DNA of 64,000 nucleotides from positions 62,001 to 126,000 of the forward strand of contig CP015606.1 in assembly GCA_002284915.1 (NCBI GenBank). The letters are read 5' to 3'. The notes beneath the pieces were generated by a model, which saw only the letters and a program-made list of their open reading frames with translations, did no database searches and was not told where the DNA came from. Both the position numbers and the translations under genes were made by a program. Numbering within the stretch: the first letter of the stretch is position 1; each line of letters starts with the position of its first letter. Positions 54,439 to 61,110 of the stretch are shown here, in pieces. This DNA is from Actinobacteria bacterium IMCC26077. GTDB taxonomy: Bacteria; Actinomycetota; Actinomycetes; Nanopelagicales; Nanopelagicaceae.

Positions 54439-55719
54439 CTAGACCCGACCCCCAAATGGAATGAGACCCGGTATGGAATAGATGGAGCTATACAAAAGAC
54501 CCTTTTTCGTATTGTGTGCTTCCCACATCATGCCATTGCCGGCATAAATGGTGATGTGGTGAATGGTGCTGATGTCAGCCTTATAGGAGTAGTAGAGCAA
54601 ATCACCGGGTTGCAGTTCGCTTAATGGCACTCGCTTAGTCCAGCTGTAATAAATTCGCGAGTTAACTCGATCCCATCCCGGATAGCCCAGTCCTGCAGAA
54701 CGATAAGCGGCATAAACTAGGCCGGAGCAGTCGAAACTATTTGGACCTTCACTGCCCCATACATAGGGCTTCCGAGCAATCACTTGTTTCTTTGCAAATT
54801 CAACAGCCTTTGCCCGAATCTCCTCAGTTGAACGAATTGTGGTACGCCCATTGCTAAATCCGATTCCGTTGACCGGCCAGATTTTGGCTTTCACATCAGT
54901 TTGCTCGGCACGTGCAGCTAGCGCCTCTTCAAGAATCGCTAATTGGCGTTGCTGTTCGAGAGTTACCCGCTTCTTGCGAGCGCTCAGAAGTTCTGCAATT
55001 AGCTGATTCTGCATCTTTTGTAACTTCTTAACTTCGACCTCTTGGGCAGCTCGAGCTTGGTCCGCCTCTTTCTTAGCTGCAGCGACCCGTGCCGTTGCAT
55101 CGGCTTGCTCTTGTCGTGCGGCGACTGCTTCAGCTCGCGCCTGCTCTGCTTCAATTTTTGCTAAGCGAGCAGATTCTTCGGCTACCTTGAGGCGAAGCAA
55201 GATGCTGCTGTTGTTCTCACCAACTGCGTCAAGTGTCGAGAGCCGATCCATGAGATCCTGCGGCCCATCAGCATGAAGTATCGAATCGAAATCAGTAAAA
55301 CCAGAGCCCATGATGTAGGCATTGGCAGCAACTTTGCCGATGTGATTCTTAGAGGCAACAACCGCGCTCTGGGCTTTATTGGATTTTGCTATCGCGACTT
55401 CTTCTTTCTTTCTCGCTGCATCTGCTTTCTTTGTCGCAATCTCTAGTTTTTTGACTTCTTGCAGGTACCTGTTCCGTGCCGCAACAGCTTTAGCCGTCAA
55501 AATCTTCAATTGATTCGATGCGGCGTTGAGTTTTGCTTTAGCTCGTTCGGCGGCAGCTTTCTTCTCTGCCTCTTTCTGCTTTGCTTCATTTATTTCGGCA
55601 ACGCTAGGTTTGCGAGTTTTGGCGTCAGCCGGAATGCCAGCTGAAATAGCGAGGAAAGTATTGAAGACGAGAAGCGTTGCCAATACGCGTTTTTTCAACA
55701 CGTGCACTCTCGCTCTCAT
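54439..55719 (-). CDS. Secreted NlpC/P60 peptidoglycan hydrolase with coiled coil
   Basis: 426-aa cell-wall endopeptidase of the RipA/RipB kind. Residues 1-33 are a signal peptide (ending ADA), about 40-265 form a long Ala/Lys/Glu-rich coiled coil, and 300-426 is the NlpC/P60 domain with catalytic Cys in FDCSGLVYAAY near 325 and His in HHITIYAG near 385. Such enzymes cut the D-Glu to meso-DAP bond during daughter-cell separation; the coiled coil usually blocks or positions the active site. The start codon lacks a ribosome-binding site, with GTG codons a few residues later as alternatives. Confidence 0.93.
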   Translation of the reverse strand: MRARVHVLKKRVLATLLVFNTFLAISAGIPADAKTRKPSVAEINEAKQKEAEKKAAAERAKAKLNAASNQLKILTAKAVAARNRYLQEVKKLEIATKKADAARKKEEVAIAKSNKAQSAVVASKNHIGKVAANAYIMGSGFTDFDSILHADGPQDLMDRLSTLDAVGENNSSILLRLKVAEESARLAKIEAEQARAEAVAARQEQADATARVAAAKKEADQARAAQEVEVKKLQKMQNQLIAELLSARKKRVTLEQQRQLAILEEALAARAEQTDVKAKIWPVNGIGFSNGRTTIRSTEEIRAKAVEFAKKQVIARKPYVWGSEGPNSFDCSGLVYAAYRSAGLGYPGWDRVNSRIYYSWTKRVPLSELQPGDLLYYSYKADISTIHHITIYAGNGMMWEAHNTKKGLLYSSIYSIPGLIPFGGRV

Positions 55720-55790: not shown

Positions 55791-57422
55791 TTAACGCTTC
55801 ACATCGACATAGACAGTGACGGTCGCATTAGGGGGCAGATTTGCTCCTGGTCTCGGGCTTTGATCCACGATGCTCTTCACGCCACCGCTCTCACCTGCTG
55901 GAATATTGCTCTTATCGACGATCGCAACGTTTAGTGCGAGCGGAGTCAGCGCCACTTTTGCCTGTTCCTCTGTGAGCCCAGTCATATCAGGAACAACCCG
56001 ACCGAACTTTCCAGGGTTCATCGCAATCGAAAGTGTGACTGGCAAGGGGATGCTGCGGAGAGTGCCATCGCTATTTTTCGACAGCCACTCGGGCTTCGAA
56101 CAATCCGTTGGAATGCATGGACGATGGAGCCATGCCCGCATATTTCCACCGCCGTTAGCAAGTAATGGAGTCTGCAGATAGATGCCATCGCCGGTGTACT
56201 TGCCACCCAGCGAGGATGGGTTCTGCAGAATCGCCTTCTTCAAACCTAAGGCAAGCTCATCTGCAGTGAGTGGAAAATTATTAAGAGGCTCACCCAGGTA
56301 AATGGTCAAAATTGATTTTGCTCGAAGGACCGTTCCTGCAGGAAATGCATATTTAGGATCAAATAGATCAAGAGAGGTATCCCGGATGCTCCATCCAGAA
56401 AGATTGATATCTCGATCGGTGCTGTTCCGCAGTAATACATACTCACCAAAGGGATTCTCGTTTGCCAATGGCGAATCTGTCTCAGTCCACAATTCAATTG
56501 CACCAAGTGGAGTCTTCTCATTCTCATTCTTACAAAGCGCGCCAGACCAGAGACCCACACCCTTTTTCGCCGCCTCATTAAGTAACTCTAAATAGCCCTG
56601 ATTCCGGACATACTCATTCTCATTGGGAAACCACATTGCTAAACCAGCTTCAATCAATTTTGCTTGCACATCAATAGTGAAATTACCCTGGGCATCTTTT
56701 GCAAAGATGTACCGATAAGGGCGAGCAAGCGCCTCATAGTTATTTGCTGAAGCGTAATTATTCGACCGTAGCTGAACTTCTGTACCAATTGGCAAGAGCG
56801 ATTTCATGAATTTCGACGCCTCAAGGCCACCGCACTGCGCAAAATGTGTTGGCTTAGCCGTCTCTGGCGCCTGGATGCCAATTTGGCGGACATTTAATTG
56901 ACCACGACAGGTCTGGACATCAACTGTGTCGCCATCTTCTACTCGAACTACCGTTCCAGTCTCCCAAATCGACTCCCCATCGAGTGCGACGGCTGGTGGA
57001 CACTCCGGGGGTAGATAAGCAGTAGGACGCGATGCGATGAATTCTGTGAATAACTGGGGGCTCTTTTGAATTCTTTTGAAAAGTAGATCACTTTTACTCT
57101 TGATTTGAACTTCGCTGGAGAACGTCTTATAAAGATTTTGGATTTGAGCACGGAGAAAATTTTGCGCAGCTTGGAATTCTTGTCCCTTACCACCAGTCTC
57201 TGCTCGCAAACGTAAGAATTCTTCTTGAGCGAAAGTTGTGCGATCAAGAAGAGGCGCAATTGCACTCGTTAGCGAGCTAAATTTTCCCTGAATCGCATCT
57301 ACTTGATCGGCAGGAATAGTTAATTCACTTATCGATGAAATCGCATTACTTGGTTGGAGATTTCCAAAGAGCAAAGTTGCGACAGTTGCTATTGAGGTAA
57401 GCCAGCGGACAGTACGCGACAT
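55791..57422 (-). CDS. Secreted thermonuclease-like protein with lamin-tail and PASTA domains
   Basis: 543 aa. Residues 1-27 are a signal peptide. About 30-125 is helical; about 150-295 is a staphylococcal nuclease-like domain with VRVEDGDTVDV near 162 and the RQIGIQAPET segment; the catalytic Arg/Glu pair is not fully certain. About 310-420 is a lamin-tail-like beta domain (GEYVLLRNSTDRDINLSGWSIRD, then FPAGTVL). About 475-543 is a PASTA repeat (VPDMTGLTEEQAKVAL...VDQSPRPGANLPPNATVTV, in parts), a module that binds peptidoglycan. It follows the DMT transporter gene by 2 nt. It is probably a wall-associated nuclease that gains nucleotides and phosphate from DNA or RNA outside the cell. Confidence 0.82.
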   Translation of the reverse strand: MSRTVRWLTSIATVATLLFGNLQPSNAISSISELTIPADQVDAIQGKFSSLTSAIAPLLDRTTFAQEEFLRLRAETGGKGQEFQAAQNFLRAQIQNLYKTFSSEVQIKSKSDLLFKRIQKSPQLFTEFIASRPTAYLPPECPPAVALDGESIWETGTVVRVEDGDTVDVQTCRGQLNVRQIGIQAPETAKPTHFAQCGGLEASKFMKSLLPIGTEVQLRSNNYASANNYEALARPYRYIFAKDAQGNFTIDVQAKLIEAGLAMWFPNENEYVRNQGYLELLNEAAKKGVGLWSGALCKNENEKTPLGAIELWTETDSPLANENPFGEYVLLRNSTDRDINLSGWSIRDTSLDLFDPKYAFPAGTVLRAKSILTIYLGEPLNNFPLTADELALGLKKAILQNPSSLGGKYTGDGIYLQTPLLANGGGNMRAWLHRPCIPTDCSKPEWLSKNSDGTLRSIPLPVTLSIAMNPGKFGRVVPDMTGLTEEQAKVALTPLALNVAIVDKSNIPAGESGGVKSIVDQSPRPGANLPPNATVTVYVDVKR

Positions 57423-57424
57423 CT

Positions 57425-58276
57425 TTACGCCATCGTAAGGCAGGCTGCCGCGGCGAGCGCTAGCACAACCCCAATATTCTGAATTACTCGAAGACGTTCA
57501 TGTAACACGTAACGAGCTAAGACCGCAGTCGCCGCAGGATAGAGTGAGGCTAATACTGCGACTATTGCGAGAACTCCTTTTTGGGTGGCAATTTGATAGA
57601 TGCCATTTGCAGAAGCATCGAAAATGCCAGCGACGATTGCGAGCGTCCATGGAAATGGTTGTGAATTCTCATCTTTGGAGATTGCCTTAAGCCGCAACAA
57701 GAAGAAGGCTCCTACGAAAAGAAAGCCAAACCAACGCGCAATCGTTGAGGTCCAAATTCCTTGATTTGAAGGGGCCAGCCCTAAGACTGTGAGATAGGAA
57801 CCGATCAAAGTGCCACTGGCGACACAGATGAGCAAGGTACTCAGAGAGATTCGTTGAGTTTGATCACTCTTGCGCTCTTGACTGACGAGAATCACCGAAA
57901 GTGCCGCAAGCGCCATGCCGAAATACCCAATAGCTGAGACGCTATCTCCTCGGAGTAATCCGGTAATGACCGGAACAAACCCTGCCATGAGCGCGGTGAT
58001 TGGCGAGACGATTCCCATCGGCCCGCGGCTAAGGGCGACATAAAGAAGTGCGATTGCAGGTACGCCAAAGAAGGCGGCGAAGAAACCAAAGAGATATGAA
58101 TCGCTATTGAGCTCGCCTGGAATTAAGAAGATTGAGAAAAAAGTAACGACAATTGCGCCGGATAAGTAGGAGACGGGGAGTACGCGAACTATTCGAGTCC
58201 GGCGCGAAGCTAGGCCCCCCAGAAAATCCGCTAGGCCCCAGGTCAGACTCGAGATCAACGCGAGTAACGGCGCCAC
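57425..58276 (-). CDS. EamA/DMT-family transporter
   Basis: 283-aa inner-membrane protein with ten predicted helices in two EamA-type repeats (AFFGVPAIALLYVALSRGPMG; GIFDASANGIYQIATQKGVLA, in parts). Export or import of a metabolite is likely; the substrate is unknown. I choose the GTG at 58276, preceded by AGGAG, because longer starts would run into the divergent methyltransferase start at 58320. The secreted nuclease gene follows at 2 nt. Confidence 0.82.
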   Translation of the reverse strand: MAPLLALISSLTWGLADFLGGLASRRTRIVRVLPVSYLSGAIVVTFFSIFLIPGELNSDSYLFGFFAAFFGVPAIALLYVALSRGPMGIVSPITALMAGFVPVITGLLRGDSVSAIGYFGMALAALSVILVSQERKSDQTQRISLSTLLICVASGTLIGSYLTVLGLAPSNQGIWTSTIARWFGFLFVGAFFLLRLKAISKDENSQPFPWTLAIVAGIFDASANGIYQIATQKGVLAIVAVLASLYPAATAVLARYVLHERLRVIQNIGVVLALAAAACLTMA

Positions 58277-58319
58277 TAGACTCCTAACATCGAGTAGAGG
58301 TTTATTGGAGTTTCTACAC

Positions 58320-58985
58320 ATGACAACAGAGCCAGGTGCAGGGGAATTCTATCCCTTCGTTGGCGTCGGGCCACATCCGAAACCTTGGCCTGTCGGAAAT
58401 CATTACGACCCAGAGTTACTCGAAAACGGTGATAAGCGAAATGTTCTCGATGAGTATCGATATTGGACGGTGGCGGCGATAGTTGCCGATCTCAATAAGA
58501 AACGTAATCCACTCCACATCGCAGTCGAGAATTGGAAACATGATCTCAACATCGGATCTCTAATTCGTACCGCAAATGCATTTAATGTCGAAGGCATTCA
58601 TATTGTAGGAAAGCGAGATTGGAATCGACGTGGTGCGATGGTCACCGATAGGTACATGAATGTGGTCCACCACCCCACTGTCACAGACTTTGCCGAGTGG
58701 GCTAAGAGTCAGAATTTGCCGATAATTGGTATCGACAACATCGAAGTAAGTCAGCGCCTTGAGCACCGGCCATTACCAAAAGCATGCATTCTCTTCTTCG
58801 GGCAAGAAGGCTCTGGAATGTCTGATGAAGCCGTAGCAGTCTGCCGCGAAGTCCTCGCCATCGAACAATATGGGTCTACCCGTTCGATAAACGCATCTGC
58901 GGCAGGAGCAATTGCTATGTATGCCTGGGGCTTACAGCACCTTTCACCAAAAGACGGCAATCACAATGTTGGTAAAGGTCAATAA
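58320..58985 (+). CDS. SpoU-family tRNA/rRNA 2'-O-methyltransferase
   Basis: 221-aa knotted methyltransferase without an added substrate domain. The three SpoU motifs are HDLNIGSLIRTANAF near residue 70, FFGQEGSGMSDEAV near 160 and EQYGSTRSINASAAGAIAMYAW near 180-200 (in parts). It differs from RlmB elsewhere in this window by lacking the N-terminal domain; the RNA target is unknown. The ATG at 58320 has GGAG about 9 nt upstream. It overlaps the convergent membrane-protein gene by 42 bp. Confidence 0.9.
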   Translation: MTTEPGAGEFYPFVGVGPHPKPWPVGNHYDPELLENGDKRNVLDEYRYWTVAAIVADLNKKRNPLHIAVENWKHDLNIGSLIRTANAFNVEGIHIVGKRDWNRRGAMVTDRYMNVVHHPTVTDFAEWAKSQNLPIIGIDNIEVSQRLEHRPLPKACILFFGQEGSGMSDEAVAVCREVLAIEQYGSTRSINASAAGAIAMYAWGLQHLSPKDGNHNVGKGQ

Positions 58986-59320: not shown

Positions 59321-60229
59321 TTACTCCTTAAAAACCTTTAGCCGACCTTGTGCTAGCGCGCTACCGACAAGGACAATTAAACCCCCAACCGGTTCGTTCC
59401 AAGTTAACGGCTCACCGAGCAACAACAAACCAAGCACTACGGCTACCAGTGGCGTTATGTAGGTGACGGTGCTTGCTATAGAAGCGCCGGCAAGTGCGAC
59501 ATTACGGAAATTCCAAATGTATGCAAAACCAGTTCCAAATATCCCTAAGGCAAGAATAGAAAATATTGCGCTAGCAGATGGTCGGTAGGAATCAACACCG
59601 TGATAGATGAAGAAGGGCAACAGTGTGGCGGCAGAGAGCGTCACTTGTATTGTCGCTAAAAGTTCCGATTTCAGATTTCGATTCATCACGAATTTTGAGG
59701 AATAAGGGAATGAAATCCCGTAACAAGTGACCGCGAGCAGGAGCGCCCCGAATGCGCTCCACGAGAAGTTGCCGAGCGACTGGCCTACAACTAAAACGAT
59801 AAGCACGCCGAGGAAACCAAGAACAATGCCAAAAATCCGGTTAATTGTCAGCCGCTCTGTTCTGAAAATTACCAAGATCATCAAAACGCTCATGATCGGC
59901 GTGAAGGCATTCATGATGCTGGCCAAAATCGATGAAACGCGTTCTTGAGCGAACGCAAACAAAATTCCAGGAAACACATTTAAAAATAGGCCGACTACCC
60001 AGAGATGAAAGTAAAGCTTCCAATCACGAACAATTGGGATTCGCTTGTACAACAAGACACACCAAAGTGAACCGGCACCGAAAAAACAACGAAGGAAGGC
60101 AACTCCGACTGGAGTGAGGAAAGTCAGTGACTTTTCGATAAAGAGAAAGGACGCGCCCCAAACGATTCCAAGGGCGATATAGGTGGGAAGCCAATTCTGG
60201 CTTCTCTGAGGATTTAGTGAGTTAGTCAA
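59321..60229 (-). CDS. EamA/DMT-family transporter, copy A
   Basis: 302-aa ten-helix transporter with two EamA repeats; each ends with the familiar pattern of a late helix after TPLVAVVLGLLLLGEPLTWNEP (in parts). It overlaps copy B by 4 bp and clearly resembles it (shared LTWNEPVGGLIVL/VTWNEPVGGVIVI endings, SFLFIEKSL/SFMFIEIAL starts), so the pair arose by tandem duplication and may work as a heterodimer. Substrate unknown. Confidence 0.88.
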   Translation of the reverse strand: MTNSLNPQRSQNWLPTYIALGIVWGASFLFIEKSLTFLTPVGVAFLRCFFGAGSLWCVLLYKRIPIVRDWKLYFHLWVVGLFLNVFPGILFAFAQERVSSILASIMNAFTPIMSVLMILVIFRTERLTINRIFGIVLGFLGVLIVLVVGQSLGNFSWSAFGALLLAVTCYGISFPYSSKFVMNRNLKSELLATIQVTLSAATLLPFFIYHGVDSYRPSASAIFSILALGIFGTGFAYIWNFRNVALAGASIASTVTYITPLVAVVLGLLLLGEPLTWNEPVGGLIVLVGSALAQGRLKVFKE

Positions 60230-61110
60230 CGGTTTGCCCGAGATCTCTGCGTGATTGCGTTGCCAAGAATCACGATGACACCGCCCACAGGTTCATTCCA
60301 AGTAACCGGCTCATTAAGCACTATGACTCCAGCAATCACCGCCACGATAGGGGTCACGAAGTTTACGGTGGCCGCTACCGAGCTGCCTACAGCTGAGACA
60401 ATTTGGTAATTCCATGCGAAGGCAAATCCGGTTGAGAAGATTCCGATAATCGAGATTGCGAATATCGGCCCAATTGAGAAGTCATATGAATTAAAGCCAT
60501 AGAGAACAAAAGCTGGGAAGAGCACGACTGCAGCAATTGTTACTTGGATTGTTGCCAATGCAACTGGCGGATAGTTCTTAGGCGAGATGTATTTGGCGAT
60601 TATCGGCGCGACTAATCCGAAAGATGTGACTGCAATGAGTAAGAAAAGATAAGCCCACCATGGGGCGCTCTCGATATCCCAAATTCCGAAGACCACCGCC
60701 ACGCCAAAGAACGCCAGCAAGATTCCAAAAATTTGTATTGGCTTGATGGCCTCATGCTTGAAGAGAAGTAAGGTGAATATCACTGCAAAAATCGGAGACA
60801 TCGCATTGACGATTCCGGTGAGCGAAGATGTCACCTCTGTCTGTGCAAATGGCACGATGACTACTGGGATGATGTTCGAGCAGAGGCCAATCAGGAAGAT
60901 CCAGCCAAAAACTGATCGATCTCGTGGAATCGAAATCTTCTTGTAGAACAAGTACCCCCACAGGACTGCCGCGCCGAGAAGGTTCCTCACAAAAGCGATA
61001 CCGAATGGGCTGAAGACTGGGAGCGCAATCTCGATGAACATAAACGAGAGGCCCCAGGTCAGACTGAGCAGTAGGTATGGCGCCAACCATCGCCGTGAAT
61101 TCAACCGCAC
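60226..61110 (-). CDS. EamA/DMT-family transporter, copy B
   Basis: 294-aa ten-helix transporter, paralogue of copy A. The start at the GTG at 61110 is uncertain; a TTG two codons later with GGGG upstream is an alternative. It probably heads the transcript that also carries copy A and the small membrane protein. Amino-acid or metabolite export is the common role in the family, but nothing here fixes it. Confidence 0.87.
   Translation of the reverse strand: MRLNSRRWLAPYLLLSLTWGLSFMFIEIALPVFSPFGIAFVRNLLGAAVLWGYLFYKKISIPRDRSVFGWIFLIGLCSNIIPVVIVPFAQTEVTSSLTGIVNAMSPIFAVIFTLLLFKHEAIKPIQIFGILLAFFGVAVVFGIWDIESAPWWAYLFLLIAVTSFGLVAPIIAKYISPKNYPPVALATIQVTIAAVVLFPAFVLYGFNSYDFSIGPIFAISIIGIFSTGFAFAWNYQIVSAVGSSVAATVNFVTPIVAVIAGVIVLNEPVTWNEPVGGVIVILGNAITQRSRANR

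Follow-up and report, generated by a model that had tools for sequence, protein, structure and literature searches.

A predicted exported nuclease with lamin tail and PASTA domains and an amide at the Asp40 position in a freshwater-type actinobacterium

The window analysed here, a 64,000-nucleotide stretch of the genome of a freshwater-type actinobacterium, contains a gene that the earlier note on this DNA described as an unusual fusion of a staphylococcal nuclease-like (SNase) domain, a lamin tail domain (LTD) and a PASTA domain. The locus raises the question of whether such a protein would be a working nuclease, where it would act, and whether it operates with its neighbours as a system for scavenging extracellular DNA.

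Gene, domains and predicted fold

The gene is a single intact open reading frame of 543 amino acids at 55791..57422 on the minus strand, with exactly the limits assigned to it before. Its conservation and the absence of internal stops argue that it is not there by chance. The domain search suggested in the earlier note, run with Pfam, returned all three domains above their cut-offs: SNase at residues 178–293 (E 1.3e-8, 35.7 bits against a cut-off of 21), LTD at residues 322–416 (E 1.8e-10, 41.6 bits against 34.3) and PASTA at residues 476–540 (E 4.5e-11). The last of these, the profile match on which the proposal hinged, scored 43 bits against 23.2. Orthologues agree with this architecture, and a chance domain match was ruled out since the curated cut-offs are passed and the orthologues concur. 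NCBIfam gave matches to secreted nucleases and to PASTA kinases, all below cut-off.

The SNase domain spans residues 154–293 (56544..56963, minus strand, as are all parts of the gene given below) when the Pfam match (PF00565) is combined with the phmmer alignment of S. aureus nuclease (2SNS) to residues 154–267 and with Foldseek. From Pfam (PF00932) and the structural model, the LTD extends over residues 308–441, with a C-terminal PC....C motif (56100..56501). It is the sole LTD in the genome. The PASTA domain (55803..55997) is a single repeat according to Pfam (PF03793) and a search of the genome itself; the two other PASTA proteins of the genome (G000:C1:272727-273302 and 1221597-1222385) carry three and four repeats.

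Residues 1–27 (MSRTVRW...QPSNA, 57342..57422) resemble a Sec signal peptide when read by eye (MSRTVRWLTSIATVATLLFGNLQPSNA), and hydropathy peaks near residues 5–8. Two cysteine pairs, Cys197/Cys297, nearly universal among SNase-LTD relatives, and Cys436/Cys441, found in 49 of 56 rows of these relatives, fit an exported protein. The description as an exported protein of nuclease type with PASTA at its C-terminus is thus in line with both the signal-peptide-like start and the Pfam matches.

An AlphaFold model (m31a2a4003cd5) built from 56 sequences had a mean pLDDT of 82 and a pTM of 0.62; an earlier model from five close homologues (pLDDT 54) was set aside, and four rows from plasmid collections were excluded from the second alignment. 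The SNase core has pLDDT values mostly above 85 and matches S. aureus nuclease (1SNC) with E 3.7e-9 and a TM by target of 0.83. Across SNase structures the TM by target is 0.80–0.88, so that the predicted fold is the SNase OB-type fold. Residues 31–131 (57030..57332), to which no Pfam family corresponds, are modelled as a helical region with pLDDT mostly 70–90.

The metal site and the actinobacterial SNase-LTD clade

The Ca2+ site of staphylococcal nuclease, a textbook enzyme, has been probed with point mutants, and active-site residues are given here in S. aureus numbering. Asp21 and Asp40 are Ca2+ ligands of this enzyme. In the alignment Asp165 (56928..56930) corresponds to Asp21, Arg179 (56886..56888) to Arg35, Glu187 (56862..56864) to the general base Glu43 and Arg234 (56721..56723) to Arg87, and all four are kept. 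The Asp40 position is occupied by Gln184 (CAG, 56871..56873), and the gap-free R-x4-[QND]-x2-E spacing makes this column secure. The Ca2+ carboxylate pair is thus incomplete in the window protein, a pair that characterises the S. aureus type and is not demanded by the Pfam family PF00565 itself. The roles of Arg35, Arg87, Glu43 and Ca2+ in SNase have been described (PMC8436206).

The earlier note had proposed aligning the active-site Arg and Glu, both of which proved conserved, and regarded a loss of catalytic residues across homologues as fatal to its reading. Such a loss was found at one position, Asp40, where every close homologue has another residue; Arg35, Glu43, Arg87 and Asp21 are invariant. 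Asp19, Asp21, Arg35 and Glu43 are unchanged in 119 of 119 distinct aligned SNase regions, and Arg87 in every one of these that reaches the position. Residue 40 is always D, N or Q, other replacements being absent. In searches seeded with Q/N proteins, which returned related sequences from Actinomycetota and a few haloarchaea, the 63 LTD-fused SNases have Q in 30 cases, N in 28 and D in five, whereas the 56 SNases without an LTD fusion have D in 53 and N in three. The five LTD-fused exceptions are four haloarchaeal proteins and L064; the three N-bearing proteins without an LTD are all cut off by the end of their locus, and two of them are near-identical. The genome also encodes a second, stand-alone SNase outside the window (L001, G000:C1:183381-183695), which has a signal-type N-terminus and keeps Asp40.

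In an SNase tree built without the residue-40 column, a single branch (SH-aLRT 99) unites 50 actinobacterial SNase-LTD rows, and 49 of the 50 carry Q or N at residue 40. We refer to this grouping, defined in the present analysis, as the actinobacterial SNase-LTD clade. Two LTD-fused sequences outside it (L034 and L043) also have N, and the haloarchaeal SNase-LTD fusions, with D, are placed elsewhere on the tree. The tree requires at least three changes of LTD state, at least four between D and N/Q, and at least eight among D, N and Q, the last suggesting exchange between N and Q with retention of an amide. With about three independent LTD fusions, and one to three independent pairs for the comparison of LTD with residue 40, the link between the two is to be read as a clade trait and not as a tested correlation.

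Three further residues mark the clade: Arg237 (SNase position 90, 56712..56714; R in 53 of 56 members), Asp251 (position 98, 56670..56672; D in 55 of 56) and Glu270 (position 118, 56613..56615; E in 53 of 56). All three positions are variable in SNases outside it. The window protein, with Q184, R237, D251 and E270, carries the full combination of N/Q40 and R90-D98-E118 by which the clade is defined.

Invariant catalytic residues together with a position 40 restricted to amides argue against simple decay and suggest a metal site that has been retuned and is under selection. We lean, with slightly better than even confidence, towards an exported, envelope-associated nuclease of the SNase fold that is likely active and has a modified metal site with an amide at Asp40. 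Such an enzyme would cleave nucleic acids through the usual Arg35/Glu43/Arg87 set, which is most likely retained, at a site in which the Ca2+ carboxylate ligand Asp40 is replaced by Gln or Asn; its preferred metal or its rate may differ from those of the S. aureus enzyme. The LTD would probably help to hold substrate or surface, and by analogy with ExeM and the DNases of halophiles it may aid contact with DNA. The PASTA end would plausibly favour residence at the cell wall, where the nuclease could trim DNA or RNA near the cell, be it for nutrition or for clearing the surface. Counting against this reading, SNases deprived of a metal carboxylate are usually less active, as in Asp40 mutants; the lone PASTA domain may bind peptidoglycan poorly or not at all, and a sister genome does without the gene. 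If so, the protein is a concrete candidate for cell-surface nucleic-acid turnover in actinobacteria with small genomes.

A wider reading, which we put forward tentatively, is that a widespread actinobacterial SNase branch has redesigned its metal site, with the conserved amide for Asp40 and the newly conserved R90, D98 and E118 altering which metal or substrate it uses or how fast it works, and with its proteins placed at the envelope by the LTD together with PASTA or SLH domains. Having dropped one ligand acid and held the other catalytic residues, the clade offers a direct test of the role of that ligand and of whether the branch uses another metal.

The substitution could also be a routine lineage variant of an ordinary Ca2+-dependent nuclease, in which the carbonyl oxygen of the residue-40 amide still serves as a Ca2+ ligand and nothing of note has changed. 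This is possible, if on the doubtful side: the other catalytic residues are all kept and the predicted fold is a standard SNase fold, but the R90-D98-E118 signature that accompanies the amide across the clade points to a wider rearrangement.

Rather unlikely, in our judgement, is a catalytically dead SNase whose fold survives as a surface module that binds nucleic acid or adheres, with the LTD and PASTA domains adding contacts. The Ca2+ ligand Asp40 is missing in 58 of the 63 LTD-fused SNases, and several members have SNase Pfam scores near or below the cut-off. However, a dead enzyme is not expected to retain R35, E43, R87, D19 and D21 without exception across the clade, nor residue 40 to be limited to amides with no sign of drift.

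Locus conservation, loss and relatives

The neighbours named in the earlier note, a DMT transporter and a peptidoglycan hydrolase, are both present and conserved. An EamA/DMT transporter gene (57425..58321, minus strand; identified by Pfam EamA) lies upstream at a distance of 2 nt and is probably co-transcribed with the nuclease gene. A promoter/terminator scan found no promoter-like site, and terminators were at chance level. The next gene downstream encodes a RipC-like NlpC/P60 protein (54439..55719, minus strand; Pfam NLPC_P60, NCBIfam RipC below cut-off), followed by tilS, hpt, ftsH, folE and folP. Two more EamA-type transporter genes occur in tandem nearby, at 59321-61110 of the window.

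Orthologues with all three domains were found in four of the five genomes of its own genus, g1, at 70–73% identity, and in the sister genus g13 at about 51% identity, where the SNase score of an orthologue (18.3 bits) falls slightly under the Pfam cut-off. Long matches in a search of 151 genomes from the order are confined to these two genera. The order SpoU – EamA – SNase-LTD-PASTA – NlpC is common to the g1 genomes, and its first three genes keep their order in g13, three further genomes of which have the nuclease gene beside EamA. In L156, a g13 genome, EamA overlaps with the nuclease gene, and NlpC is set apart from the latter by an ABC transporter pair. A contig titled Bifidobacterium breve (CAMAPN010000002.1, L014) carries the same locus as genus g1, with a protein sequence matching that of G118:C2; its title looks wrong.

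G151, a g1 genome, lacks the nuclease gene between EamA and NlpC (L165 1100-1420 and 1372-2403). The EamA gene there has an internal deletion, NlpC is retained, and the junction preserves a 15-bp exact match to the 3' end of the nuclease gene (E 3e-4, weak evidence when taken alone). The deletion and the 3' remnant together suggest secondary loss, so that the gene is dispensable in one lineage.

The least probable of the readings weighed here is the scavenging system of the earlier note, in which a wall-held nuclease digests extracellular DNA, EamA imports the products and the NlpC/P60 hydrolase helps: it draws on synteny, namely the close or overlapping EamA and nuclease genes and the restriction of close EamA relatives (>50% identity) to the two nuclease-bearing genera, but EamA family members carry many substrates, peptidoglycan hydrolases have general wall roles, and NlpC/P60 persists in the genome that lost the nuclease gene and does not adjoin the latter in the sister genus.

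Chromosomal synteny conserved in two genera and the lack of viral hits led us to reject a phage or mobile origin. No relative turned up in the viral contigs scanned, and in phages and plasmids the SNase or SNase-LTD matches were all partial.

Two-domain SNase-LTD proteins are numerous in the class and phylum according to profile searches. In family f106 a PASTA domain follows the SNase-LTD part as well, above the Pfam cut-off in L054 and below it in L105 and L107 (E 0.0027 and 0.00065). The window group and the PASTA-bearing f106 group join with a support of 84, under the starred level, and a single PASTA fusion shared by the two is possible. Another protein (L026 268-3276) has an SNase region followed by two LTDs and three SLH domains, the latter a putative alternative to PASTA as wall-attachment module. 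Tandem SNase-LTD gene pairs were observed in two genomes of family f82 (L065 1489-2556/2462-3517 and L066 500-1525/1486-2436).

Comparison with known systems

In a full-text literature search no paper contained "PASTA domain" and "thermonuclease" together, and "staphylococcal nuclease" and "lamin-tail" co-occurred only in a review lacking an SNase-LTD-PASTA fusion. The SNase-LTD fusion as such is already annotated in haloarchaea, including on their plasmids, and the actinobacterial amide form is a variant of it. The haloarchaeal "lamin tail domain-containing" proteins (e.g. WP_247995967.1) have the SNase domain followed by the LTD as in the window protein; unlike it, they retain Asp40, lie elsewhere on the tree and are without PASTA.

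For DNases of halophiles, the LTD has been suggested to take part in binding DNA (PMC4486849). ExeM of Shewanella oneidensis, which consists of an LTD, an OB-like domain and an EEP nuclease domain, is likewise an extracellular nuclease with an LTD; deletion of the LTD made the enzyme slower in vitro and left near-normal activity in vivo (PMC6085458), and the domain is thus dispensable for degrading DNA in vivo. In contrast to the window protein, ExeM has an unrelated nuclease fold and an N-terminal LTD, and PASTA is not reported for it.

As in PASTA kinases and PBPs, the PASTA domain of the window protein would belong to an extracytoplasmic segment. Binding by PASTA domains has been described for kinases with several repeats (PMC3145798, PMC3989709); the former paper gives M. 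tuberculosis PknB four repeats, against one on a predicted secreted nuclease here. Holding of the protein at the wall by this one domain is plausible, and its binding to peptidoglycan may be weak or absent.

The enzymatic reference is the S. aureus thermonuclease (PF00565, 1SNC), with which the window protein has in common the fold and the positions of Asp21, Arg35, Glu43 and Arg87, and from which it differs in the Gln for Asp40, the R90-D98-E118 signature, the fusion to LTD and PASTA, and the disulfide-type cysteine pairs.
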